Assembly (NCBI GenBank): GCA_016195985.1
Contig: JACPYP010000011.1
Span: 372,001 to 436,000, forward strand
Reading direction: 5' to 3'
DNA: 64,000 nucleotides
Origin: Acidobacteriota bacterium
GTDB lineage: Bacteria > Acidobacteriota > Holophagae > Holophagales > Holophagaceae
Positions 42,227-51,513 of this stretch are shown here, piece after piece. Made by a program: the position numbers and the translations under genes. Each line of letters begins with the position of its first letter. The first letter of the stretch is position 1. Under the pieces are notes generated by a model that made no database searches, was not told the origin of the DNA, and saw only the letters and a program-made list of their open reading frames with translations.

Positions 42227-43147
42227 ATGCCCCGCAGCAGCACGCCCCAGACCCTGAGCCGCGAGATCACCATCTCGGGTCACGGCCTGCACGGCAACCG
42301 GCCCTGCTCGGTGCGGCTGGTGCCCACAGCCAAGGCCTCCGGCCTGGTTTTCGTCCACACCCCCACGGGAACGGAAATCCCCGCCAAGGCGGATCTCGCC
42401 GGCGATCTGGTCCTGTCCACCACCCTGGTGAAGGACGGCGTCCGCCTCCAGACCATCGAACACCTGCTGTCCGCCCTCTCCGGCCTCGAAATCGAACACC
42501 TCCGCATCGAAGTGGATGCCGAGGAACTCCCCATCCTCGACGGCAGCGCCGCCCCCTGGGTGGAGGCCATCCTGCAGGCGGGCGCGAAGGGCCTGGAAGG
42601 CCGCCGCCGCTTCATGAAGATCACCCAGCCCGTGGAAGTGCGGAACGGCGACCGCTGGATCCGCGCCCTACCCTTCGACGGCCTGCGCCTCCGCTATGTC
42701 ATCGACTTTCCCGTTCCCGCCCTGGGCCGCCAGAGCCGCGAGCTGAGCCTCACTCCCGAGAAGTACCGCCGCGAACTGGGGGCCGCCCGCACCTTCTGCC
42801 TGGCCCAGGAAATCGACATGATGCGCGCCCGGGGCCTGGCCCTCGGCGGCAGCCTGGACAACGCGGTGGTCTTCGGCGCCGAAGGCCCCCTGAACGAGTC
42901 CCTCCGCTTCGAAGACGAGGCCGTGCGCCACAAGATGCTCGATCTGGTGGGCGATCTGGCCCTGCTCGGCGCGCCACTGCTGGGCCTGGTCGAAGCCCAC
43001 GCCGCCGGCCACGCCATGCATGTGGCCTTGGCCCAAGCCATCCTGGCCAACCCCAGCCATTGGGAGTGGACCGAAGAGACCGAGCCCGCCAACGTGCGGT
43101 TCTTCTTCCAGCCTTCTGAGCTCAGCATCGCCGCCCAGCCTGCCTAA
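42227..43147 (+). CDS. lpxC: UDP-3-O-acyl-N-acetylglucosamine deacetylase
   Basis: 306 aa, full family length. Zinc-binding residues are in LQTIEHLLSALSGLEIEH and KMLDLVGDLALLG, with a final catalytic-type His in VEAHAAGHAMHVALAQAI. Other conserved segments are ISGHGLHGNRPCSVRLVPA-like at the start, LPILDGSAAPWVE and ARTFCLAQEID. It performs the committed step of lipid A synthesis, which proves a Gram-negative envelope. GAGGA sits eight bases before the ATG. It is preceded by AT-rich DNA with dyads. Confidence 0.96.
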   Translation: MPRSSTPQTLSREITISGHGLHGNRPCSVRLVPTAKASGLVFVHTPTGTEIPAKADLAGDLVLSTTLVKDGVRLQTIEHLLSALSGLEIEHLRIEVDAEELPILDGSAAPWVEAILQAGAKGLEGRRRFMKITQPVEVRNGDRWIRALPFDGLRLRYVIDFPVPALGRQSRELSLTPEKYRRELGAARTFCLAQEIDMMRARGLALGGSLDNAVVFGAEGPLNESLRFEDEAVRHKMLDLVGDLALLGAPLLGLVEAHAAGHAMHVALAQAILANPSHWEWTEETEPANVRFFFQPSELSIAAQPA

Positions 43148-43325
43148 AGATCGCCCTCAACACGAGAGATCCGGCACGGAGGCCGTGTTTCTCCGTCATG
43201 GGCAGGCCGGAAGCCTTCGAAGGCGAAACGGTATGAATCCGTTCCCGCTGGATTTCCGATTGCGGTGCGACGGCCGATGCTGGCAGTCTGGTCACTTCAC
43301 CTTCGAGGTGCACAGGTGTTGCTTC
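43148..43325 (+). promoter_or_regulatory. Structured leader between lpxC and the his operon
   Basis: Several hairpins follow in series: CACGG-AGG-CCGTG (43175-43187), the palindrome GCCTTCGAAGGC (43213-43224), AACGG-TATGAAT-CCGTT (43227-43243, with the candidate hisD ATG in its loop) and CACCT-TCG-AGGTG near 43298-43310. No His-rich leader peptide, T-box or known riboswitch motif was found. It may contain an attenuator or protein-binding RNA controlling his genes. Confidence 0.4.
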
Positions 43326-44645
43326 ATCTCCATCCATGACCTGATCGACCGGGCGGATCTGCCCGGATGGGTGGCCTCCCTGGCCAGGAACAAGGAGATG
43401 GAAGCGGATACCCGGCAGGCCGTGTCGGCCATCCTGGCGGACGTGCGCCTTCGTGGGGTGGAAGCGGCCATGGATTGGACCCGGCGTTTGGATGGGGTGC
43501 AGCTGGATTCCGCCGCCCTTCGGATCCCCCGGTCCACCCTGGAAACCGCCCGGAAGGATCTGGACTGCGCTCAGCCCAGCCTCATGGCCGCCCTGCGGGA
43601 ACTCATCGCCAATGTGCGCCGCTTCGCCGAGGGCCAGCGCCGCAGTCTCCTGGATCTGGAACTGCCCCTGCCCGGCGGCGGCACGGTGGGCGAGCGCTGG
43701 TGTCCCTTGCAGACCGCCGGGGTCTACATTCCCGGCGGGCGGGCCTTCTATCCCTCCACCCTGGCCATGACCGTCATCCCCGCCCAGGTGGCCGGCGTGC
43801 GGCGCATCGTGGGCGTCACGCCCCCGAGGGCCCGGCCCACCCTTCCCGGCGCCTGGGGCATCGACCCCCTGGTGCTGGCCTGCGCGGCGGAGCTGGGCCT
43901 CACCGAGCTGTATCCCTTCGGCGGCGCCCAGGCCCTGGGCTGGCTGGCCCATGGCGAACCCGCGGTGGATCTCCTCGCCGGGCCCGGCAACCGTTTCGTG
44001 GCCGAGGCCAAGCGCCAGCTCATCGGCACCTGCGGCATCGATGCCCTGGCCGGCCCCACGGAACTGCTGATCCTAGCCGATGCCAGCGCCGATCCCGCCT
44101 GGCTCGCGGAGGATCTCATGGCCCAGGCCGAACACGATCCCGATGCCGCCGCCGTCCTGGTGAGCGGGGACCGCGCCCTGCTGGAAGCCGTCGCCGCGGA
44201 GCTGCAGGCCCGCCTCGCCGCCTCGCCGCGGCGGGCCATCCTCGAACAAAGCCTCGCCAGCCATGGGCGCCTCGTGTGCGCCGACCGCGAACTGGCCATC
44301 GCCCTGGCCCAGGCCTGGGCCCCGGAACACCTGGAGTTGTGCCTGGCGGATGCGGACGCCTGGCTGCCCCAGCTCACCACGGCGGGCGCCCTCTTCATCG
44401 GCGGCGCCAGCGCCGAGGCCTTTGGCGACTACGGCGCGGGCCCCAACCACGTGCTGCCCACGGACCGCAGCGCCCGCTACTCCAGCCCCCTGGGCGTGGC
44501 CACCTTCCTGAAGCGCCAGAGCCTGATCCGCCTGTCGCCTGCGGACGCTGCCGCCATGGCACCCTGGGTGGAACGCCTGGCGGAAGCCGAAGGCCTCGCG
44601 CACCACGGCCGCAGCGCCGCCCTTCGCGGCCACCATCATCCCTAG
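43233..44645 (+). CDS. hisD: Histidinol dehydrogenase
   Basis: 470 aa from ATG 43233 (AAGG nine bases upstream), or 445 aa from GTG 43308; similarity starts only at FISIHDLIDRADLPGW, so the shorter form is quite possible. Motifs include GERWCPLQTAGVYIPGGRAFYPSTLAM, GIDALAGPTELLI, AQAEHDPDA and the zinc/catalytic region PEHLEL...GDYGAGPNHVLPT. It carries out the final two oxidations of histidinol to histidine with NAD. It is first in the his operon; 82 bp separate it from the hisC fusion. Confidence 0.93.
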   Translation: MNPFPLDFRLRCDGRCWQSGHFTFEVHRCCFISIHDLIDRADLPGWVASLARNKEMEADTRQAVSAILADVRLRGVEAAMDWTRRLDGVQLDSAALRIPRSTLETARKDLDCAQPSLMAALRELIANVRRFAEGQRRSLLDLELPLPGGGTVGERWCPLQTAGVYIPGGRAFYPSTLAMTVIPAQVAGVRRIVGVTPPRARPTLPGAWGIDPLVLACAAELGLTELYPFGGAQALGWLAHGEPAVDLLAGPGNRFVAEAKRQLIGTCGIDALAGPTELLILADASADPAWLAEDLMAQAEHDPDAAAVLVSGDRALLEAVAAELQARLAASPRRAILEQSLASHGRLVCADRELAIALAQAWAPEHLELCLADADAWLPQLTTAGALFIGGASAEAFGDYGAGPNHVLPTDRSARYSSPLGVATFLKRQSLIRLSPADAAAMAPWVERLAEAEGLAHHGRSAALRGHHHP

Positions 44646-44727: not shown

Positions 44728-46545
44728 ATGTCCCTTCTTCGACCAGACCTTGCCGACCTGCCCTCCTACCAGCGGCCTCCCGAGCCCTCCGGCGGTGCGC
44801 GCCTGCACATGAACGAGCCCGCCGAAGACTGGCCGGAGGCGGCCAAGGAGGCGCTCCTGGCGCGGCTCCGGGACCTGCCCTTCCACCAGTATCCCGAGCG
44901 CCAACCCGAACTCACCGAACGGCTGGCCCGGCGTCTGGGCGTGCCCGAAGGCGGCCTGTTGCTGGGGCCATCTTCCGGCGCGCTGCTGGACCTGGTGGCC
45001 ATGGCGGGGCTGAGCCCGGGCGACACCGTGGCCATCCCCGAACCCGGTTTCAGCCTCTATCCCATGCTGGCGCGTCGGCACGGCGGCCGCGTGCGCCTCG
45101 TTTCCCAGGGCACGGGCTTTCCCCTGGAACCCTGGTTCGCCGCCCTGGACTGCCGCCAGATCTGGCTGACGCTGCCAAACAATCCCACGGGCGCCTGGCT
45201 TTCGCCTGAGGAGCTGGAGCCCCTGCTGGCGGCCATCGCCGCGCGGCCCGATCCGCCCCTGGTGGTGCTGGACGAAGCCTATGCCGAGTTCGCTCCGGCC
45301 ACCCACCGCCTGGCCGTGGACCGCTATCCCAACCTGCTCTTGCTGCGGACCTTCAGCAAGGCCCTCGCCTCCGCCGCCTGGCGCATCGGCTACCTTCTGG
45401 GCGATCCCGCCCTGGTGGCCAGGCTCGCCACGCTGCAGCTGCCCTATTCCCTGCCTTCGGCCAGCCTGGAAGCCCTGGACGTGGCCCTGGATTTCGCGGC
45501 GGATTTCGAGACCGCTGTGCGGGCCGTGCCTGAGCGCCGTGATCGGCTCGGCTCGGCGCTGACCGATTACCAGACCGCGCCCAGGTATCAGGCTGCGCCC
45601 AGGTATCAGGCTGCGCCCAGCTATCAGGCTGCGCCCAGCGCGGGCAATTTCCTGCACCTGTCGCCGGATCCTTCATCTGTCCTGGAAGGCGCGGGCCTGA
45701 AAGTCCGCCGCCTGCCCGGCGCCGACGCCGCCCGCGTCACCGTGGGCGCCGAAGCCGACACCGCCCGCGCGGCATCGGCCCTGGGCGCCGTCCTGCCCGC
45801 GCCGGCGCCCCGGCCCCGCCGCCGCCTGCTGGCGTTGGACATCGACGGCGTGCTCATCGACGCGGGCCGCAGCTTCATGGATTCCGTGGCCCGGGCCCTG
45901 GCCGAACTGCGCCCGGCCCTGCCCTGGTCCGACGGCACCTTCCGCGCCTTCAAGCGGCTGGGCGGTTTCAACAACGATTTCCGCCTCACGGCGGGCGCCC
46001 TGGCCCTGGCCGAGCGCCAGGGCGACGTGGACCTCCAGCCCCTGCTGGAAAGCGCCGCGGGCCGGGGCTTTCCGGAACTGGAACCGCGCATGCGGACCCT
46101 CGAGCCCATCGCCCAGGTGGTGGTTCAGAAGCACTACGCAGACACCATCCACAGCGAGCGCGCCCTGGTGGCCTTGGAGGAACTCCGCAGCACCGGCTGG
46201 GATCTGGCGGTGCTGACGGGCCGCCCCCCCGACGAGCTGGCCCTGGCCTGGCGGGTGCTCGGGTTCAAGCTGCCCGCCGTCTGCGATTCGGCGCCCCACC
46301 TGCGCAAGCCGGAGCCCGCGGGCCTGCTGCAGCTGGCCGACGCCTTCCGGGCCGAGGACATCGTCTTCGCCGGAGACACCATCGACGACGCCCGGTGCCT
46401 CGGAGCCGCGGCGGCTCTGCGTCCGGAGCTCCGTTGGCGCTTCGCGGCCATCGGGCCCGACCGCGGCCGCTTCGCCTCGCCCGGGGATCTGTCCTTCGCC
46501 GGACTTCGGGAATGCCTGTCCGTACTGACCCAGGAGCAGCCATGA
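44728..46545 (+). CDS. hisC: Histidinol-phosphate aminotransferase fused to HAD phosphatase
   Basis: 605 aa. Residues 1-350 are a class I/II aminotransferase with HMNEPAEDWPE at the start, LTLPNNPTGAWLS, LDEAYAEF and the PLP lysine in RTFSKALASAAWRIGYL. Residues ~370-600 are a HAD subfamily IA domain: LLALDIDGVLIDAGRSF (nucleophile DxD), GGFNNDFRLT, VLTGRPP, RKPEPAGLL and FAGDTIDDARCLGAA. No HisB-N or PHP histidinol-phosphatase is in this operon, so the HAD domain is the likely phosphatase (inference). The GGFNND motif recalls HAD-IA group TIGR01548. A YQAAPR repeat interrupts the aminotransferase near residues 281-304. The stop overlaps hisB. Confidence 0.88.
   Translation: MSLLRPDLADLPSYQRPPEPSGGARLHMNEPAEDWPEAAKEALLARLRDLPFHQYPERQPELTERLARRLGVPEGGLLLGPSSGALLDLVAMAGLSPGDTVAIPEPGFSLYPMLARRHGGRVRLVSQGTGFPLEPWFAALDCRQIWLTLPNNPTGAWLSPEELEPLLAAIAARPDPPLVVLDEAYAEFAPATHRLAVDRYPNLLLLRTFSKALASAAWRIGYLLGDPALVARLATLQLPYSLPSASLEALDVALDFAADFETAVRAVPERRDRLGSALTDYQTAPRYQAAPRYQAAPSYQAAPSAGNFLHLSPDPSSVLEGAGLKVRRLPGADAARVTVGAEADTARAASALGAVLPAPAPRPRRRLLALDIDGVLIDAGRSFMDSVARALAELRPALPWSDGTFRAFKRLGGFNNDFRLTAGALALAERQGDVDLQPLLESAAGRGFPELEPRMRTLEPIAQVVVQKHYADTIHSERALVALEELRSTGWDLAVLTGRPPDELALAWRVLGFKLPAVCDSAPHLRKPEPAGLLQLADAFRAEDIVFAGDTIDDARCLGAAAALRPELRWRFAAIGPDRGRFASPGDLSFAGLRECLSVLTQEQP
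45568..45639 (+). repeat. 18-bp minisatellite, four copies, in frame inside hisC
   Basis: Units 45568-45585, 45586-45603, 45604-45621 and 45622-45639 encode YQTAPR, YQAAPR, YQAAPS, YQAAPS. The last three differ by a single base (AGG/AGC); the first differs at several. The array lies just before AGNFLHL, the usual PSxxNFLL segment of HisC. Confidence 0.95.
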
Positions 46546-47138
46546 GGACCGCCACCATCCAGCGCGCCACCGCGGAAACCGAGGTGAAGCTCAGGCTGGA
46601 CCTCGATGGAGGTCACGATGGAGGCGAGGCCCGCATCCGCACCGGCCTGGGCTACTTCGACCACATGCTCGCGCAGCTGGCCCGGCATGGCGGCTTCGGC
46701 CTGGACGTGGAAGCCACGGGCGACCTGCCCGTGGACAGCCACCACCTGGTGGAGGACGTGGGCCTCTGCCTGGGCGACGCGCTGAAGCAGGCCCTGGGCG
46801 AGCGCCGGGGCCTGGCCCGCTTCGCCCACGCCTACGTGCCGCTGGACGAAGCCCTGGCCCGGGTGGTGGTGGATCTCTCCGGCCGGCCCTGGTGCGAATT
46901 CCACGCGGACCTCCCGCCCATCGTCCTCGGCGATGGGTTCCAGGTGGAGATGGTCCGGGAATTCTTCGTGGCCCTGGCCATGCGCGGCGGCCTCTCCATT
47001 CATGCCGACCTGCTGCGCGGCGTGAACACCCACCACAAGGTCGAGGCCCTGTTCAAGGCCCTGGCCAGGGCCCTGCGACAGGCCACGCGCATCGAGGGCG
47101 GCGGGCTGCCTTCCACCAAGGGAACCCTCTCCGCATGA
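46542..47138 (+). CDS. hisB: Imidazoleglycerol-phosphate dehydratase
   Basis: 198 aa, monofunctional. The two mirrored halves show GLGYFDHMLAQLARHGGF with DSHHLVEDVGLCLGDAL, and FFVALAMRGGLSIHADLLRGVNTHHKVEALFKALARAL (read in parts), whose His/Glu sets bind two Mn ions. It dehydrates IGP to imidazole-acetol phosphate, the substrate of HisC. The phosphatase half found in enterobacterial HisB is absent. ATG overlaps the hisC stop (ATGA). Confidence 0.95.
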   Translation: MRTATIQRATAETEVKLRLDLDGGHDGGEARIRTGLGYFDHMLAQLARHGGFGLDVEATGDLPVDSHHLVEDVGLCLGDALKQALGERRGLARFAHAYVPLDEALARVVVDLSGRPWCEFHADLPPIVLGDGFQVEMVREFFVALAMRGGLSIHADLLRGVNTHHKVEALFKALARALRQATRIEGGGLPSTKGTLSA

Positions 47139-47148
47139 GCGATACCCC

Positions 47149-47793
47149 ATGAGCGACACTGGCATCATCACCCTCATCGACTACGACGCGGGCAACCTGG
47201 CCTCGCTGGAGGGAGCCCTGGACCGCCTCCAGCTGCCTTGCCAGCGCGCCGCGACGCCGGACGGCCTCGCACCCGACGGCCCCGTCATCCTGCCGGGCGT
47301 GGGCCACTTCGAAGCGGCCCAGCGATCCCTCCGCGACCGCGGCTGGTGGCGCCTCCTGCCCACCCTCGTGGCCGAGGGCCGGCCTCTGCTGGGCATCTGC
47401 CTGGGCCTTCAGCTGCTGGCCGAAGGCAGCGAGGAAGCGCCCCGCGCCTCGGGCCTCGGCCTCATCCCCGGCCTCGTGCGCCGCCTGGGGCCGGGCGTGA
47501 AGGTGCCCCACATGGGCTGGAGCCGGGTGAGCGAACACCGCATGCACCCCGCATTGCCGGATCTCCACGGCGCCTGGCTCTACTTCGTCCACAGCTACGC
47601 CCTGGAACCCACCGTGGAAACGATCTGCGTGGCCGAGCACGGGCGGCCTTTCGCGGCGGTCCAGGCCCGCGGCCTGGTCCTGGGCTTCCAGGCCCACCCG
47701 GAAAAATCGGGAGAGGCCGGCCTGTCCATGCTGAAGTCCACCCTCGCCTGGATGGGCGTGGCAGCGCCCGCGCCGGAGGCGCCATGCAACTGA
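47149..47793 (+). CDS. hisH: Imidazole glycerol phosphate synthase, glutaminase subunit
   Basis: 214 aa class I glutamine amidotransferase. The nucleophile Cys is in LLGICLGLQLLAEGS (about residue 84), the His/Glu pair in FQAHPEKSG (about 182-184), with LPGVGHFEAA and YFVHSYAL also present. It supplies ammonia to HisF. The ATG at 47149 repeats a ten-base sequence (ATGAGCGAYAC...) seen 14 bp upstream across the hisB stop. It overlaps hisA by 10 bp. Confidence 0.95.
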   Translation: MSDTGIITLIDYDAGNLASLEGALDRLQLPCQRAATPDGLAPDGPVILPGVGHFEAAQRSLRDRGWWRLLPTLVAEGRPLLGICLGLQLLAEGSEEAPRASGLGLIPGLVRRLGPGVKVPHMGWSRVSEHRMHPALPDLHGAWLYFVHSYALEPTVETICVAEHGRPFAAVQARGLVLGFQAHPEKSGEAGLSMLKSTLAWMGVAAPAPEAPCN

Positions 47794-48497
47794 TCCCCAG
47801 CCTCGACCTCATGCAGGGCCGCCTGGTGCGGCTGCGTCACGGGGATCCCCGCCAGGCCACCTTCTACGACCTCGATCCCGAGGCCTGGATCGCCAGCTTG
47901 GCCGAAGCCGGCGCCCGCCGCATCCACCTGGTGGATCTGGACGGCGCCTTCGGCCGCCCGCGCCAGGGCCGCTTCACGGAATTCCCTGCCCGCTTTCCCC
48001 AGATCCGCTTCCAGGTGGGTGGTGGCCTGCGCGACCGCACGGCCATCGAGGAGGTGCTGGCCCTCGGCTTCGACGCCGTGGTGGGCACCCTGGCCGTGGA
48101 GCGGCCCTCGGCCCTGCGCGGCCTGCCTGGCGGCCACCTCATCGCGGCCCTGGACCTGAAAGGCGACCGCATCGTCACCCGAGGCTGGCAGGCCTCCAGC
48201 GAATGCGCCTCCACGGATGTCTTCGAGGCCCTGCTCAGCCTGGGCTTCAACCGGGCCCTGGTCACCGACGTCAGCCGCGACGGAACGCTGGAAGGCCCTG
48301 GCCTGGAAGCCGCCGCCTGGGTGGCTCGGGAGGGTTTCCAGGTGCAGGCCTCCGGCGGTGTCAAGGCGCTGGCGGATCTCGAGCCTCTGGCCCTCCTCCC
48401 CGGCGTCGTGGGCGCCATCAGCGGCAAGGCGCTCATGGAAGGGTTCATCCCCCTGGACGACCCGGACACCCGCGCTGCGCTGGAAGGAGTTGCCTGA
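47784..48497 (+). CDS. hisA: ProFAR isomerase (phosphoribosylformimino-AICAR isomerase)
   Basis: 237-aa (beta/alpha)8 barrel. Catalytic Asp in LIPSLDLMQGRLVRL and Asp in VTDVSRDGTLEGPG, phosphate-binding VGGGLRDRTAIE and ASGGVKALADL. It opens the ribose ring of ProFAR by Amadori rearrangement. The first Asp is preceded by SL rather than the common PAID/PSID. Start 47784 overlaps hisH; its stop shares a base with hisF (TGATG). Confidence 0.95.
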   Translation: MQLIPSLDLMQGRLVRLRHGDPRQATFYDLDPEAWIASLAEAGARRIHLVDLDGAFGRPRQGRFTEFPARFPQIRFQVGGGLRDRTAIEEVLALGFDAVVGTLAVERPSALRGLPGGHLIAALDLKGDRIVTRGWQASSECASTDVFEALLSLGFNRALVTDVSRDGTLEGPGLEAAAWVAREGFQVQASGGVKALADLEPLALLPGVVGAISGKALMEGFIPLDDPDTRAALEGVA

Positions 48498-49249
48498 TGC
48501 CCGCCAAGCGCATCATCCCCTGCCTGGACGTGAAACAGGGCCGCGTCGTGAAGGGCGTGCAGTTCAAGGACCTCCGCGACCTGGGCCATCCGGTGCAGCT
48601 GGCCCGCCGCTACGACGCCGAGGGAGCGGACGAACTGGTGTTCCTGGACATCGCCGCCTCCATCGAGAACCGCGGCACCCGGGAGACCTGGGTGCGCGAG
48701 GTGGCCCGCGAGCTCAGCATCCCCTTCACCGTGGGCGGCGGCGTTTCCCATGTGGAAGACGCCCGCAGCCTGCTCCGCGCCGGCGCCGACAAAGTGGCCG
48801 TGAACACCGCCGCCGCCCTGCGCCCGGCCCTGGTGCGCGAATTGGCGGACGCCTTCGGCCGCCAGTGCGTGGTGGCGGCGGTGGACGTGAAGCGCGATCC
48901 GGCCCTGGGCTGGCGGGTCTATCTGAAGGGCGGCACGGAACCCACGGAACGCTCGGTCCAGGATTGGCTGTGGGAGCTGAGCGACCTGGGCGCCGGCGAA
49001 ATCCTGCTCACGTCCATGGACCGCGACGGCACGGGCGAGGGCTTCGACATTCCGCTGCTGGATCTCGCCTCGAAACTGCCCATCCCGCTCATCGCTTCCG
49101 GCGGCGCGGGCCGGGAGATCCACTTCCTGGAAGCCCTGGAACACGGCGCCGATGCGGTGCTGGCCGCCACCCTCTTCCATGAGGGCATCCTGCCCATTTC
49201 CCAGCTCAAGGCCTACCTGGCCCACAACGACCTTTCCGTGCGGATCTGA
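48497..49249 (+). CDS. hisF: Imidazole glycerol phosphate synthase, cyclase subunit
   Basis: 250-aa barrel starting KRIIPCLDVKQGRVVKGVQFKDLRD (catalytic Asp in CLDV), with VGGGVSHVEDARSLL, AVNTAAAL, LTSMDRDGTGEGFD (second catalytic Asp) and IASGGAGREIHFLEAL. It joins ammonia from HisH with PRFAR to give IGP and AICAR. TGATG overlap with hisA. Confidence 0.97.
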   Translation: MPAKRIIPCLDVKQGRVVKGVQFKDLRDLGHPVQLARRYDAEGADELVFLDIAASIENRGTRETWVREVARELSIPFTVGGGVSHVEDARSLLRAGADKVAVNTAAALRPALVRELADAFGRQCVVAAVDVKRDPALGWRVYLKGGTEPTERSVQDWLWELSDLGAGEILLTSMDRDGTGEGFDIPLLDLASKLPIPLIASGGAGREIHFLEALEHGADAVLAATLFHEGILPISQLKAYLAHNDLSVRI

Positions 49250-49250
49250 C

Positions 49251-49874
49251 ATGGACATCAACACCCTTCGTTTCGGCCCCGACGGCCTCATTCCCGGCAT
49301 CGTGCAGGACCGCTCGGGCACGGTGCGCATGATGGCCTGGCTTAACCGAGAATCCCTGCAGGCCACGCTGGACACGGGCCACGTCACCTTCTGGAGCCGC
49401 TCCCGCCAGGCCCTGTGGACCAAGGGCGAAAGCAGCGGCAACCGCCTGAAGCTCATCCAGATCCGGACAGACTGCGATGCGGACGTGCTGCTCATCCTGG
49501 CCGATGCCGAAGGACCCAGCTGCCACCGGGGCACCCGAAGCTGCTTCGACGGCGAAGGGGAGCCCCCCACCCTGCCCTGGCTGGGCCAGCTGGAATCGCT
49601 GCTGCGATCCCGCAAAGCCCAGGCGGATCCAGGCGGCAGCTACACCCAAAGGCTCTTCGCCCAGGGCGTGGACCGCATCGCCAAGAAGGTGGTGGAGGAG
49701 GCGGGCGAGGTGATCCTGGCCGCCAAGAACGAGGACCGCGAAGCCTTCCTGGGCGAGGCGGCGGACCTGCTCTTCCATCTCGAGCTGCTGCTCGTCGAGC
49801 GCGGGGCCAGCCTGCAGGACGTGGTGGAGGTGCTCCACGGCCGCCACGCGGAGCGTTCGGGAGGAACCTCCTGA
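49251..49874 (+). CDS. hisI: Bifunctional PRA-CH / PRA-PH enzyme (HisIE)
   Basis: 207 aa. The N-terminal cyclohydrolase (about 1-110) has MMAWLNRESLQATLDTGHVTFWSRSRQALWTKGESSGN, metal-binding DCDADVLLI and SCHRGTRSCF. The C-terminal pyrophosphohydrolase (about 120-200) has SYTQRLFAQGVDRIAKKVVEEAGEVILAAKN and EAADLLFHLELLL, an all-helical MazG-like fold. It covers steps 2 and 3 of histidine synthesis. It overlaps hisZ (TGATG). Confidence 0.95.
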   Translation: MDINTLRFGPDGLIPGIVQDRSGTVRMMAWLNRESLQATLDTGHVTFWSRSRQALWTKGESSGNRLKLIQIRTDCDADVLLILADAEGPSCHRGTRSCFDGEGEPPTLPWLGQLESLLRSRKAQADPGGSYTQRLFAQGVDRIAKKVVEEAGEVILAAKNEDREAFLGEAADLLFHLELLLVERGASLQDVVEVLHGRHAERSGGTS

Positions 49875-50842
49875 TGCCCGTCCGCACGCCGCACTTTCCC
49901 GACTTGCTCTTCGGCGCCGCCGCGCGCCTCCGCCGCTGGGAAGGCGCCCTCATGGGCCTCTTGGAAGCCCACGGCTACCGCGAGCTGCACCCCTCCCTGG
50001 TGCTGCGCGAAGCCGTCCCCGACGGTTCCCTTCGTTTCTTCGACGGCGACGAGCTGGTGGCCCTGCGCTGGGATTTCACCGTGTCCCTGGCGGCCCTGTT
50101 GGCCCGGCGCTTCACGGAGCCGCCGCCCCGGGTGGCCTATGCCGGCGCCGTGTTCCGCAGGCCCGTGCAGCCCTGGGAGGCGGTGGAGCGCTTCGAGGTG
50201 GGCTGCGAGCGCATCCAGGCCGAAGGTGAAGCCACCGGCGAGGCCGACGTGGAACTGGCCCGCCTGCTCATGGCCATCCCCGGCGTGCTGGGGCTGAAGG
50301 GCGCCATCCTCCACCTGGGCAATGCGGCGCTGGTGCGTCGCCCACTTGAGGCGGAAGGGCTTCCGCCGAATCTGGCCGAAGCCGTGGTGGCGGCCCTTTC
50401 CCGGCGCGCGCCCCATCGGGTCCGCGAGGCGTTGGCGGACCACCCGGCCGCCGCACGGCTCGCCGCCCATGCCGAAGCCCTCCTTGCCGAGCTGGATGGG
50501 CCGCACACGATGGAAGCCCTCAAAGCCAGCCCCTATGCCGGTCTGCTGCAGGAGGAGCGGGAGCGCATGGAGCGGGCTCTGCAATCGCTGCTGCCCATTC
50601 TGCCGCCCAACCTGGAGCTGCGGGTGGACCTCGCCGACGTCGCCGGTCTCGGTTTCTACACAGGCCCCACCCTTCGCTTGTGGGCCCCCGGCGCACAGCA
50701 GGAGCTGGCCGCCGGGGGCCGCTACGACCGCCTCTTCCCGGGCCTGGGCCGCCCCTGGCAAGCCGCGGGCTTCTGCGTGCGCCTGTCCCGGCTGCTGGAT
50801 CTGGCCGACACCCGCCCCGACCTCTTCGAGCCACTGCCATGA
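49874..50842 (+). CDS. hisZ: ATP phosphoribosyltransferase regulatory subunit
   Basis: 322 aa, a HisRS-like catalytic fold without the anticodon domain. Class II-type pieces are FFDGDELVALRWDFTVSLAALLARR, RVAYAGAVFRR and the end AGLGFYTGPTLRLWAPGAQQELAAGGRYDRLF. It lacks the tRNA-charging residues and instead activates the short form of HisG, encoded next. Overlap of 4 bp with hisG fits obligate hetero-octamer assembly. Confidence 0.92.
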   Translation: MPVRTPHFPDLLFGAAARLRRWEGALMGLLEAHGYRELHPSLVLREAVPDGSLRFFDGDELVALRWDFTVSLAALLARRFTEPPPRVAYAGAVFRRPVQPWEAVERFEVGCERIQAEGEATGEADVELARLLMAIPGVLGLKGAILHLGNAALVRRPLEAEGLPPNLAEAVVAALSRRAPHRVREALADHPAAARLAAHAEALLAELDGPHTMEALKASPYAGLLQEERERMERALQSLLPILPPNLELRVDLADVAGLGFYTGPTLRLWAPGAQQELAAGGRYDRLFPGLGRPWQAAGFCVRLSRLLDLADTRPDLFEPLP

Positions 50843-51513
50843 CGCCAGCATCCCTCCTCATCGCCTTCCCCAAGGGTCGCCTCGGCGACGAGCTGGTGCC
50901 GAAACTGGCGGGCACGCCGCTGGCCCTGGATGCCGCCGCCCTCAAGTCGCGGGCCCTGCGCATTCCCACCGCCACGCCTGGCGTGGCGGCCCTGCTCCTC
51001 AAGGGGGCGGACCTGCCGCGCTACGTGGCCGCGGGCGTGGCCTCCCTGGGCATCGTGGGCTCGGACACCCTCGACGAACTGGACATGGACCTGCTGGAAC
51101 TGGCAGATCTGGGCTTCGGCGCCTGCCGCCTCTCCCTCTGCGCCCGGGAGGGGCTGACGCTGGAGGCTCTGCGGGCCAAGCCCCATCTGCGTCTGGCCAC
51201 CAAGTTCCCCAAGGCCACCGAAGCCTGGCTCAGCCGCGAAGGTCTCACCGCTGAGCTGGTGCCGCTCAGCAGCAGCGCCGAACTGGCGCCCCTGCTGGGC
51301 CTGGCCGACGCCATCGTGGACCTGGTGCAGACCGGCGGCACCCTTCGAGCCCACGGCCTGGTGGAAACCGCCGTGCTGGGCCACTCCTCCGCCCGCCTGG
51401 TGGCCGCCCGCGGCGCCTACCTCAGCGAACCGGGACGCATCCGGCCCCTGGCCGAAGGACTGATCCAGTCGCTGTCATCCTCCGTGAAACCGGCAGTTGC
51501 GAAGGGCGTATAA
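50839..51513 (+). CDS. hisG: ATP phosphoribosyltransferase, short (HisZ-dependent) form
   Basis: 224 aa, without the C-terminal ACT-like regulatory domain. It starts LLIAFPKGRLGDELVPKLA, has IPTATPGVAALLLKGADLPRYVAAGVASLGIVGSDTL (read in parts) and the PRPP loop DAIVDLVQTGGTLRAHGL. It condenses ATP and PRPP, the first step. Here it is the last gene of the operon, although most his operons place it early. Feedback control would pass through HisZ. Confidence 0.95.
   Translation: MTPASLLIAFPKGRLGDELVPKLAGTPLALDAAALKSRALRIPTATPGVAALLLKGADLPRYVAAGVASLGIVGSDTLDELDMDLLELADLGFGACRLSLCAREGLTLEALRAKPHLRLATKFPKATEAWLSREGLTAELVPLSSSAELAPLLGLADAIVDLVQTGGTLRAHGLVETAVLGHSSARLVAARGAYLSEPGRIRPLAEGLIQSLSSSVKPAVAKGV

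Follow-up and report, generated by a model that had tools for sequence, protein, structure and literature searches.

Histidinol-phosphatase, which acts at step 8 of histidine biosynthesis, is the most common low-confidence step in one large automated prediction of amino acid pathways, GapMind, being so rated in 42 of 148 prokaryotes (PMC7311316); an organism for which that study leaves the gap open is the cyanobacterium Synechococcus elongatus. Two kinds of enzyme with folds unrelated to the HAD superfamily, namely the inositol monophosphatase (IMPase)-like HisN and the PHP-type HisJ/HisK, catalyze this reaction. Within the HAD superfamily, the bifunctional HisB (HisNB) of enterobacteria fuses a histidinol-phosphatase to another histidine enzyme, and the class typified by Neisseria NMV_1317 fills the same gap (PMC7606547). 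Among archaea, PMC5516325 cites a HAD-type histidinol-phosphatase from Thermococcus onnurineus that is monofunctional and has archaeal homologs. The HAD hydrolase HVO_0431 of Haloferax volcanii is reported to carry the transposon in two identical histidine-requiring mutants (PMC4300041), and has been proposed for the histidinol-phosphatase step, described as the sole remaining gap in haloarchaeal histidine synthesis (PMC8305020). We describe here a gene in a 64,000-nucleotide stretch of the Holophagaceae genome GCA_016195985.1 (contig JACPYP010000011.1, positions 372,001 to 436,000; this whole stretch is termed the window), in which the histidinol-phosphate aminotransferase HisC is fused to a HAD-IA phosphatase domain. 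With a probability that we put at about 0.88, the fused HAD domain is a histidinol-phosphatase, and a single protein performs two consecutive steps of histidine synthesis.

The window locus shows clear differences from each of the above systems. HisNB combines a HAD-IIIA domain with the dehydratase HisB, whereas the window gene combines a HAD-IA domain with HisC, and a search with TIGR01656 (histidinol-phosphate phosphatase domain) did not match the fusion. The Neisseria class belongs to subfamily IB rather than IA, and neither HisN nor HisJ/HisK exceeds its cut-off in the window genome. The TIGR01548 family, including the group of HVO_0431, shares the GGFNND motif with the window domain; unlike the latter, the genes of its haloarchaeal members were found neither fused to hisC nor in a his operon, and the window domain falls below the family cut-off. 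The archaeal phosphatase Tt82 and its hisC-adjacent relatives provide the nearest solved structure by both profile and fold, a hisC neighbor, and aligned catalytic residues, but Tt82 is a stand-alone protein with about 26% identity to the window HAD over the structural alignment, and its type carries a GSFGDDF-type cap motif as opposed to the GG(F/Y)NN(D)F of the window group. HAD-type histidinol-phosphatases, fusions of histidine genes, the Thermococcus enzyme, and the proposal for the Haloferax member (PMC8305020) are already known. In the openly licensed literature that was searched we found neither a HisC-phosphatase fusion nor a treatment of these HAD groups as one family, nor any HAD histidinol-phosphatase from Acidobacteria or Thaumarchaeota.

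The HisC-HAD fusion, its operon, and its conservation

The fusion is encoded by an open reading frame (ORF) at 44728-46545 on the plus strand, running from ATG to TGA and specifying 605 amino acids. Residues 1 to ~363 (44728..45816) constitute the HisC domain (TIGR01141, E 2.4e-50; Aminotran_1_2, E 3.7e-39), and residues ~364-605 (45817..46545) the HAD-IA domain (PF00702, TIGR01548) proposed to be the histidinol-phosphatase. The genome is 4.26 Mb in size and 98.3% complete, and the window lies in its contig 18. The operon has the order hisD-[hisC/HAD]-hisB-hisH-hisA-hisF-hisIE-hisZ-hisG, and the matches of these neighbors to TIGR, NF, and PF profiles bear out the initial annotation, according to which all histidine steps are encoded here except for a recognizable histidinol-phosphatase. 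Family profile scans detected no known histidinol-phosphatase among the operon neighbors of the fusion, leaving step 8 alone without a recognized gene there, and the hisB of the window is a dehydratase only, lacking an N-terminal phosphatase domain. In the proposed mechanism, the N-terminal HisC half would transaminate imidazole-acetol phosphate to L-histidinol phosphate, and the C-terminal half would remove the phosphate via an aspartyl-phosphate intermediate on D371 to yield L-histidinol, which HisD, encoded next door, would then oxidize to histidine. The fusion would presumably help by matching the two activities or by passing the product on.

A search of 60 genomes recovered the fusion from 35 of the 37 that belong to the same genus, the window genome included, and the match reached within about ten residues of full length in 33 of these 35, ending at residue 570 in G022 and at 568 in G030. 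It was not found in two congeners, G028 (87% complete) and G033 (77% complete). Because 35 of the 37 congeners share the fusion, its origin by chance or as a frameshift artefact can be rejected; the fusion first noticed in the initial annotation is real, its ORF coordinates being exact and both of its domains being matched. Six genomes of the same class likewise encode it as one ORF, in the order [hisC/HAD]-hisB-hisH-hisF-hisA, with hisG detected upstream in five of the six and hisIE-hisD downstream in all five stretches that are long enough.

The HAD half matches PF00702 over residues 367-560 (E 1.8e-10) and TIGR01548 over residues 368-555 (54.1 bits, E 1.4e-14; 55.6 bits in the genome search). 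Motifs I (DxD), II (T/S), III (K), and IV ((G)D...D) of the HAD-IA type are all present, and the strings quoted for them and for the cap in the earlier reading (LALDIDGVLID, GGFNNDF, VLTGRP, RKPEP, and GDTIDD) are found in the translation. In HAD enzymes the position of D371 is that of the nucleophile and D373 that of the general acid, acting with T497, K527, and D550/D554. These residues are invariant in an alignment of 16 fusions, which includes proteins with as little as 22% identity to the window fusion, and are kept in a 32-row HAD alignment, where only T133 (domain numbering) is nearly rather than fully invariant. A model of the HAD alone (predicted local distance difference test, pLDDT, 94.5) predicts a helical cap between motifs I and II, with helices at 16-30, 38-46, 53-67, 73-78, and 85-112 between D7 and T133. 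The cap motif GG(F/Y)N(N/D)D contains two invariant residues outside the catalytic motifs, N51 and D53 (domain numbering), and possibly helps to form the substrate site. Among named organisms, the domain has its nearest relatives in Geothrix species, the closest being that of Geothrix sp. GS30 with 77% identity, and we take the window genome to belong to Geothrix or to a very close member of the Holophagaceae.

The TIGR01548 (HAD-SF-IA-hyp1) cut-off of 140.2 bits is missed by the window HAD, and membership in this family was accordingly rejected; the domain is a relative and not a member. At an E value of 0.001 this model is unspecific, with matches in 11 of 14 control genomes, over the cut-off in 2. 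The family itself is still classed as a "hypoth_equivalog" in the NCBIfam of June 2026.

Two variant loci were encountered among the relatives of the window fusion. G017 has a second HisC-HAD, 59% identical, on a short contig (L055, C92:1-3222) that also carries a separate set of his genes; since the HAD of this copy differs only slightly from that of the Holophagaceae metagenome-assembled genome (MAG) GL140 (L114), it may be contamination. In Holophagaceae CTSoil_007 (L132, 5650-6720) the HAD occupies a 356-residue ORF between hisD and hisB where no hisC match was found, perhaps owing to truncation or mis-assembly of the HisC part.

Gene context of the HAD domain in bacteria and archaea

A scan of named genomes used only the HAD profile and took no account of his genes; the best 80 of 105 relatives were kept. 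The counts below apply to these 80 loci and do not amount to a census, and among the weakest of them about ten are generic HADs by eye. At 29 of the 80 loci there is a hisC no more than 0.7 kb upstream, a hisB no more than 0.4 kb downstream, or both, the last being the case at 24. HisC and HAD are fused at 16 loci, with representatives in Lysobacterales, Marinicella, Pleionea, Gastranaerophilales, Myxococcota, Aminicenantes, Roizmanbacteria, and Holophagaceae, and also in an unclassified bacterium (L069). They are encoded by separate genes at 11 loci, belonging to Acidobacteriia/Bryobacterales and relatives, Roizmanbacteria, Gottesmanbacteria, Nitrososphaerales, the archaeon NM3, and a contig labelled Woesearchaeota. 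At eight of them, 0-18 nucleotides separate the hisC stop from the start of the HAD match, the gaps at the other three being 61 (L119), 97 (L109), and 620 nucleotides (L062).

Fusion is not a single unbroken state across these loci. At least three label changes are forced by well-supported branches in a quick tree that carried long-branch warnings, and hisC and HAD appear on this basis to have been joined more than once or to have split again. Eight rows without the DxDG motif (L096, L100, L102, L116, L121, L124, L133, and L135) were left out of the tree, and the drop list drawn up before it comprised L090, L109, L112, L115, L121-L125, L127-L130, L132, and L135. In G054 (L049, 6700-7900) hisC and HAD are separate genes with a GTGA overlap, an arrangement that looks intermediate between the separate and the fused forms.

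In addition to both activities, the fusion might channel histidinol phosphate from HisC to the HAD site inside the protein. The recurrent joining or re-splitting of the two genes, the close spacing at the majority of the unfused loci, and the overlap in G054 are consistent with such a hand-over. The direct hand-over that the initial annotation takes as the simple reading is a possibility only, and a doubtful extension in our view: the fusion may merely fix stoichiometry or expression, the AlphaFold model of the whole fusion has a predicted template modelling score (pTM) of only 0.66 (pLDDT 83.9), and many organisms retain hisC and HAD as separate genes.

A related HAD was also seen in a Spirochaetota MAG (L124, 5509-6561), behind hisD-hisB-hisH-hisA-hisF and with no hisC match nearby, representing a his-operon linkage in a further phylum.

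Co-occurrence with histidinol dehydrogenase in archaea

The phyletic pattern of the HAD was compared with that of histidinol dehydrogenase (hisD) in 61 genomes of the archaeal phylum of G085, presumably mostly Thermococcales. As all 61 have some HAD match at an E value of 0.001, a strong match was defined by E <1e-20. Strong HAD matches were present in 31 of the 61 genomes and hisD in 32; the HAD was detected in 31 of the 32 genomes with hisD, as against none of the 29 without it, G140 being the genome with hisD and without HAD. The corresponding Fisher value is 1.4e-16, calculated with shared ancestry ignored. The two genes are 4.8 to 8.3 kb apart in the 29 genomes that have both on one contig, and are on different contigs in two. 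At the 20 archaeal loci fetched, hisC is upstream on the same strand in 19 and adjoins the HAD in 18; L138 has almost no upstream sequence, and L153 has 0.7 kb between hisC and HAD. This gap in L153 holds two short ORFs that by eye resemble an AbrB-type antitoxin and a PIN-domain toxin, suggestive of the insertion of a toxin-antitoxin pair between the two genes.

Relationship to characterized archaeal phosphatases

Comparison of a profile of nine HADs with PDB sequences retrieved 6iah, the "Phosphatase Tt82 from Thermococcus thioreducens", as the first match (E 3.1e-28; next 2.1e-13), and a fold search with the predicted structure of the window HAD placed it first as well (Z 22.4, root-mean-square deviation (rmsd) 3.3 over 217 residues; next Z 19.3). 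The 6iah protein is in turn identical at 183 of 201 residues (91%) to the hisC-adjacent archaeal protein of L157. The histidinol-phosphatase of T. onnurineus (Lee et al., J Bacteriol 190:2629, 2008) is probably encoded by this hisC-adjacent archaeal HAD gene; its locus tag is probably TON_0887. In profile comparisons, five Holophagaceae HADs matched the archaeal hisC-linked HADs with E 3.5e-16 and the haloarchaeal HADs with E 3.2e-21; two other HADs of the window genome, used as controls, gave E 0.083 and 7.6e-5, although as single sequences they have lower power. TIGR01548 was matched by all nine HADs of one scan and by all seven archaeal hisC-linked HADs.

Against TIGR01548 the Haloferax protein of L078 reaches 223.7 bits, which exceeds the cut-off, and 6 of 6 haloarchaeal proteins scanned match this family. 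In both Haloferax loci the start of an npdG-like gene is found about 0.6 kb past the HAD, and because PMC8305020 lists HVO_0433 as npdG, the Haloferax HAD is identified as HVO_0431.

The suggestion of the initial annotation that the HAD supplies the missing histidinol-phosphatase thereby finds strong support in the multi-phylum gene context, the co-occurrence with hisD, and the repeated fusion, as well as in the homology to Tt82, with its near-identical hisC-adjacent relative, and in the reported auxotrophy of the HVO_0431 mutants. Its remark that this HAD group is uncharacterized has to be revised, as genetic evidence from Haloferax and very probably biochemistry from Thermococcus exist for relatives. 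From the gene context, the homology, and the Haloferax phenotype, we infer that the substrate is histidinol phosphate. This family would constitute a widely distributed kind of histidinol-phosphatase within HAD-IA, separate from HisB-N, HisJ/HisK, and HisN.

A broader proposal, which we regard as probable although it commands less confidence than the function of the window domain, is that the TIGR01548/Tt82-like HADs form one pan-domain class of histidinol-phosphatases spanning haloarchaea, Thermococci, Nitrososphaerota, bacteria of the candidate phyla radiation (CPR), Acidobacteriota, Myxococcota, Gastranaerophilales, and some Pseudomonadota. This class would fill a good part of the commonest gap in amino acid synthesis, and would have been fused to HisC several times independently to give the first HisC-phosphatase bifunctional enzymes. 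If true, the Thermococcus enzyme, the gene of the Haloferax auxotroph, and the HADs of bacterial his operons would become one family, closing the gap in many lineages and reducing false calls of histidine auxotrophy. The fusion of HisC with the next enzyme would also be a new domain arrangement in a pathway well known for gene fusions.

Alternative phosphatases and observations against the proposed function

A number of observations weigh against the above assignment, of which the first set concerns other phosphatases. The search of the remaining genome advocated by the initial annotation yielded no match to HisJ (TIGR01856) and none over the cut-off to HisN (TIGR02067; best 167.7 of 275.15 bits). 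These cut-offs are strict, having been passed in 14 well-known control genomes by HisN in 2, HisJ in 6, and TIGR01656 in 4, and a miss by such a model is hence weak evidence of absence. A HisB-N, HisJ, or HisN enzyme elsewhere in the genome was set aside on finding only weak or differently named relatives and, given the strictness of the cut-offs, was kept as a rival explanation, in which the real histidinol-phosphatase is a HAD-IIIA GmhB-like protein (C18:70878), an IMPase (C23:31577), or a PHP protein (C30:194549), and the fused HAD acts on something else. The HAD-IIIA protein reaches 131.7 bits against TIGR01656, for which the cut-off is 84.15 and which otherwise matches only C26:404654 in this genome and nothing at the fusion; the single IMPase matches HisN at 168 bits; and the PHP protein directly adjoins a HisC-like paralog. 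Each of these candidates scores best to another family, namely the HAD-IIIA protein to heptose-bisphosphatase (153 vs 178 bits; HisB-N 58 of 140), the IMPase to inositol monophosphatase (203 of 332 bits), and the PHP protein to CehA/McbA (80.2 bits, cut-off 80) and not to HisJ. Their genes are also far from the operon, that of the HAD-IIIA protein being about 346 kb away on the same contig and the IMPase and PHP genes on other contigs.

The presence of these models was further surveyed in 37 genomes chosen for a HAD beside or fused to a his gene, including 7 of Geothrix. HisN is over the cut-off in none of them and HisJ in one (G054, which holds the HAD as well), while a HAD-IIIA protein passes TIGR01656 in 24, including 7 of 7 Geothrix. 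Conversely, 13 of the 37 lack a TIGR01656 match over the cut-off and 6 lack an IMPase-like match, and in two, G066 and G073, there is no IMPase-like match and no HisJ or TIGR01656 match over the cut-off, with no completeness figure for either genome. As judged by these profiles, the histidinol-phosphatase step is left unexplained in at least some HAD-carrying genomes. Ten HAD-minus controls from close relatives were classed as "minus" by a single-protein search only. Taking both sides together, we consider it improbable that one of the three candidates is the real enzyme in place of the fused HAD. The result named as refuting in the initial annotation, a canonical histidinol-phosphatase elsewhere combined with an inactive HAD domain, has so far not been obtained.

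A Neisseria-type HAD-IB enzyme was also sought and, on five of the seven PF12710 matches of the window genome, rejected. Three of the seven were scanned for this purpose; two of these have phosphoglycolate phosphatase or PpaX as their best family, and only weak HAD-IA-type matches were obtained for the other. The HAD-IB model TIGR01490 gave 23.5 of 98.3 bits for one of the three, was not listed for another, and was not among the best 25 for the remaining one. Two further matches are phosphoglycolate-phosphatase-like and GmhB-like proteins, and the last two lie in 843- and 754-residue frames. With regard to PHP domains, another protein of the genome matches nucleoside-bisphosphatase, not HisJ, and a third match, in a 1322-residue frame, is by its length probably DNA polymerase III.

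The second set of contrary observations concerns gene context. Of the best 80 of 105 relatives, 51 are without hisC/hisB linkage, 23 of these being haloarchaeal, and the fusion of G058 is on a stretch without other his genes. A clade comprising L068, L070, L072, L074, L083, L086, and L105, mostly from Acidobacteriota, shows no his-gene match in the fetched flanks and carries a GFNDDW- or GNNDDW-type motif, and is putatively paralogous. At four haloarchaeal loci, hisIE- and/or hisH-like matches are present on the other strand within the fetched stretch. The occurrence of relatives away from the his operon in this clade of seven loci and in haloarchaea, together with the broad specificity frequent in HAD-IA phosphatases, might suggest that the domain has a house-cleaning role in the pathway instead of catalyzing step 8, its target being a side product, pyridoxal phosphate, or a broad set of substrates. 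The almost complete co-occurrence with hisD among the 61 archaeal genomes argues against this, as does the finding that in G066 and G073 every other known type of histidinol-phosphatase stayed below its threshold. The histidine auxotrophy reported for HVO_0431 mutants in PMC4300041, in spite of an inconsistent table, also exceeds what is expected of a repair enzyme. We accordingly hold a house-cleaning role to be very improbable, even more so than the involvement of another phosphatase, and favor the function as histidinol-phosphatase.

The remaining contrary observations relate to divergence and to the characterized relatives. The window HAD is divergent, as reflected in its low TIGR01548 score, and in the quick tree it sits on a long branch, 2.0 below six Holophagaceae rows. 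The fused HisC falls below the TIGR01141 cut-off, whereas a HisC paralog elsewhere in the genome passes it. The equation of the T. onnurineus enzyme with the hisC-adjacent HAD is inferential. In Table 5 of PMC4300041 the printed integration site of the HVO_0431 mutants, 1,198,248, differs by 5 bases from the one given for an HVO_1312 (tyrosine) mutant and conflicts with the position of HVO_0449, 399,114; the text of that source names HVO_0431 twice, and one entry of the table is probably a slip. A polar effect of the HVO_0431 insertion is also possible.

The HisC half and the neighboring genes

Residues 5-349 of the fusion match TIGR01141 (hisC) with 171.4 bits (E 2.4e-50); the cut-off of 276.55 is not reached, and it is still the best family. 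K211, N151, P153, T154, D182, Y185, R219, and R336 are invariant in the alignment of 16 fusions. By its SFSK pattern K211 is the pyridoxal phosphate lysine, the others being pyridoxal phosphate- or substrate-binding residues of class I/II aminotransferases. The best PDB fold matches of the whole-fusion model are HisC enzymes (Z 36.5, rmsd 2.3 over 331 residues); the HisC half filled the list of this search, for which reason the HAD was modelled alone. Within the HisC domain, an in-frame 18-bp tandem repeat (45577..45638, plus strand; 3.4 copies, 97% matches) adds 18 residues of YQAAPR-like units. It is absent in the 15 other aligned fusions and looks like a recent expansion in the window strain.

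All the neighboring his genes lie on the plus strand. Upstream of the fusion is hisD, histidinol dehydrogenase (43020..44645; TIGR00069 403.7 bits, over the cut-off; PF00815), the true start of which is probably downstream of the mechanical ORF start because the profile match begins near residue 123. The stop of the fusion and the start of hisB, imidazoleglycerol-phosphate dehydratase (46542..47138; NF002111 249.4 bits, over the cut-off; PF00475), share an ATGA overlap read from the sequence. There follow hisH (47149..47793; TIGR01855, 169.9 bits), hisF (48497..49249; TIGR00735, 317.2 bits), hisIE (49257..49874; NF002747, 242.6 bits), and the short form of hisG (50836..51513; TIGR00070, 158.1 bits), all over their cut-offs, and interspersed with them hisA (47787..48497; TIGR00007, 160.7 bits) and hisZ (49868..50842; TIGR00443, 134.8 bits), which are below the cut-off with these as their best families.

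Two further HisC-like proteins are encoded in the window genome. One (C30:192852-194743, L005; L011 1474-3467), with 251.8 bits, adjoins the CehA/McbA-like PHP protein, and this pair lies behind an ORF that by eye resembles an adenylate-forming enzyme, possibly as part of a separate small pathway. The third HisC paralog (C14:265149-266207, L010) reaches 284.5 bits, over the cut-off, and the ORF adjacent to it is ClpP-like by eye. Similar matches recur across many genomes of the genus, and this paralog may be an aromatic aminotransferase.

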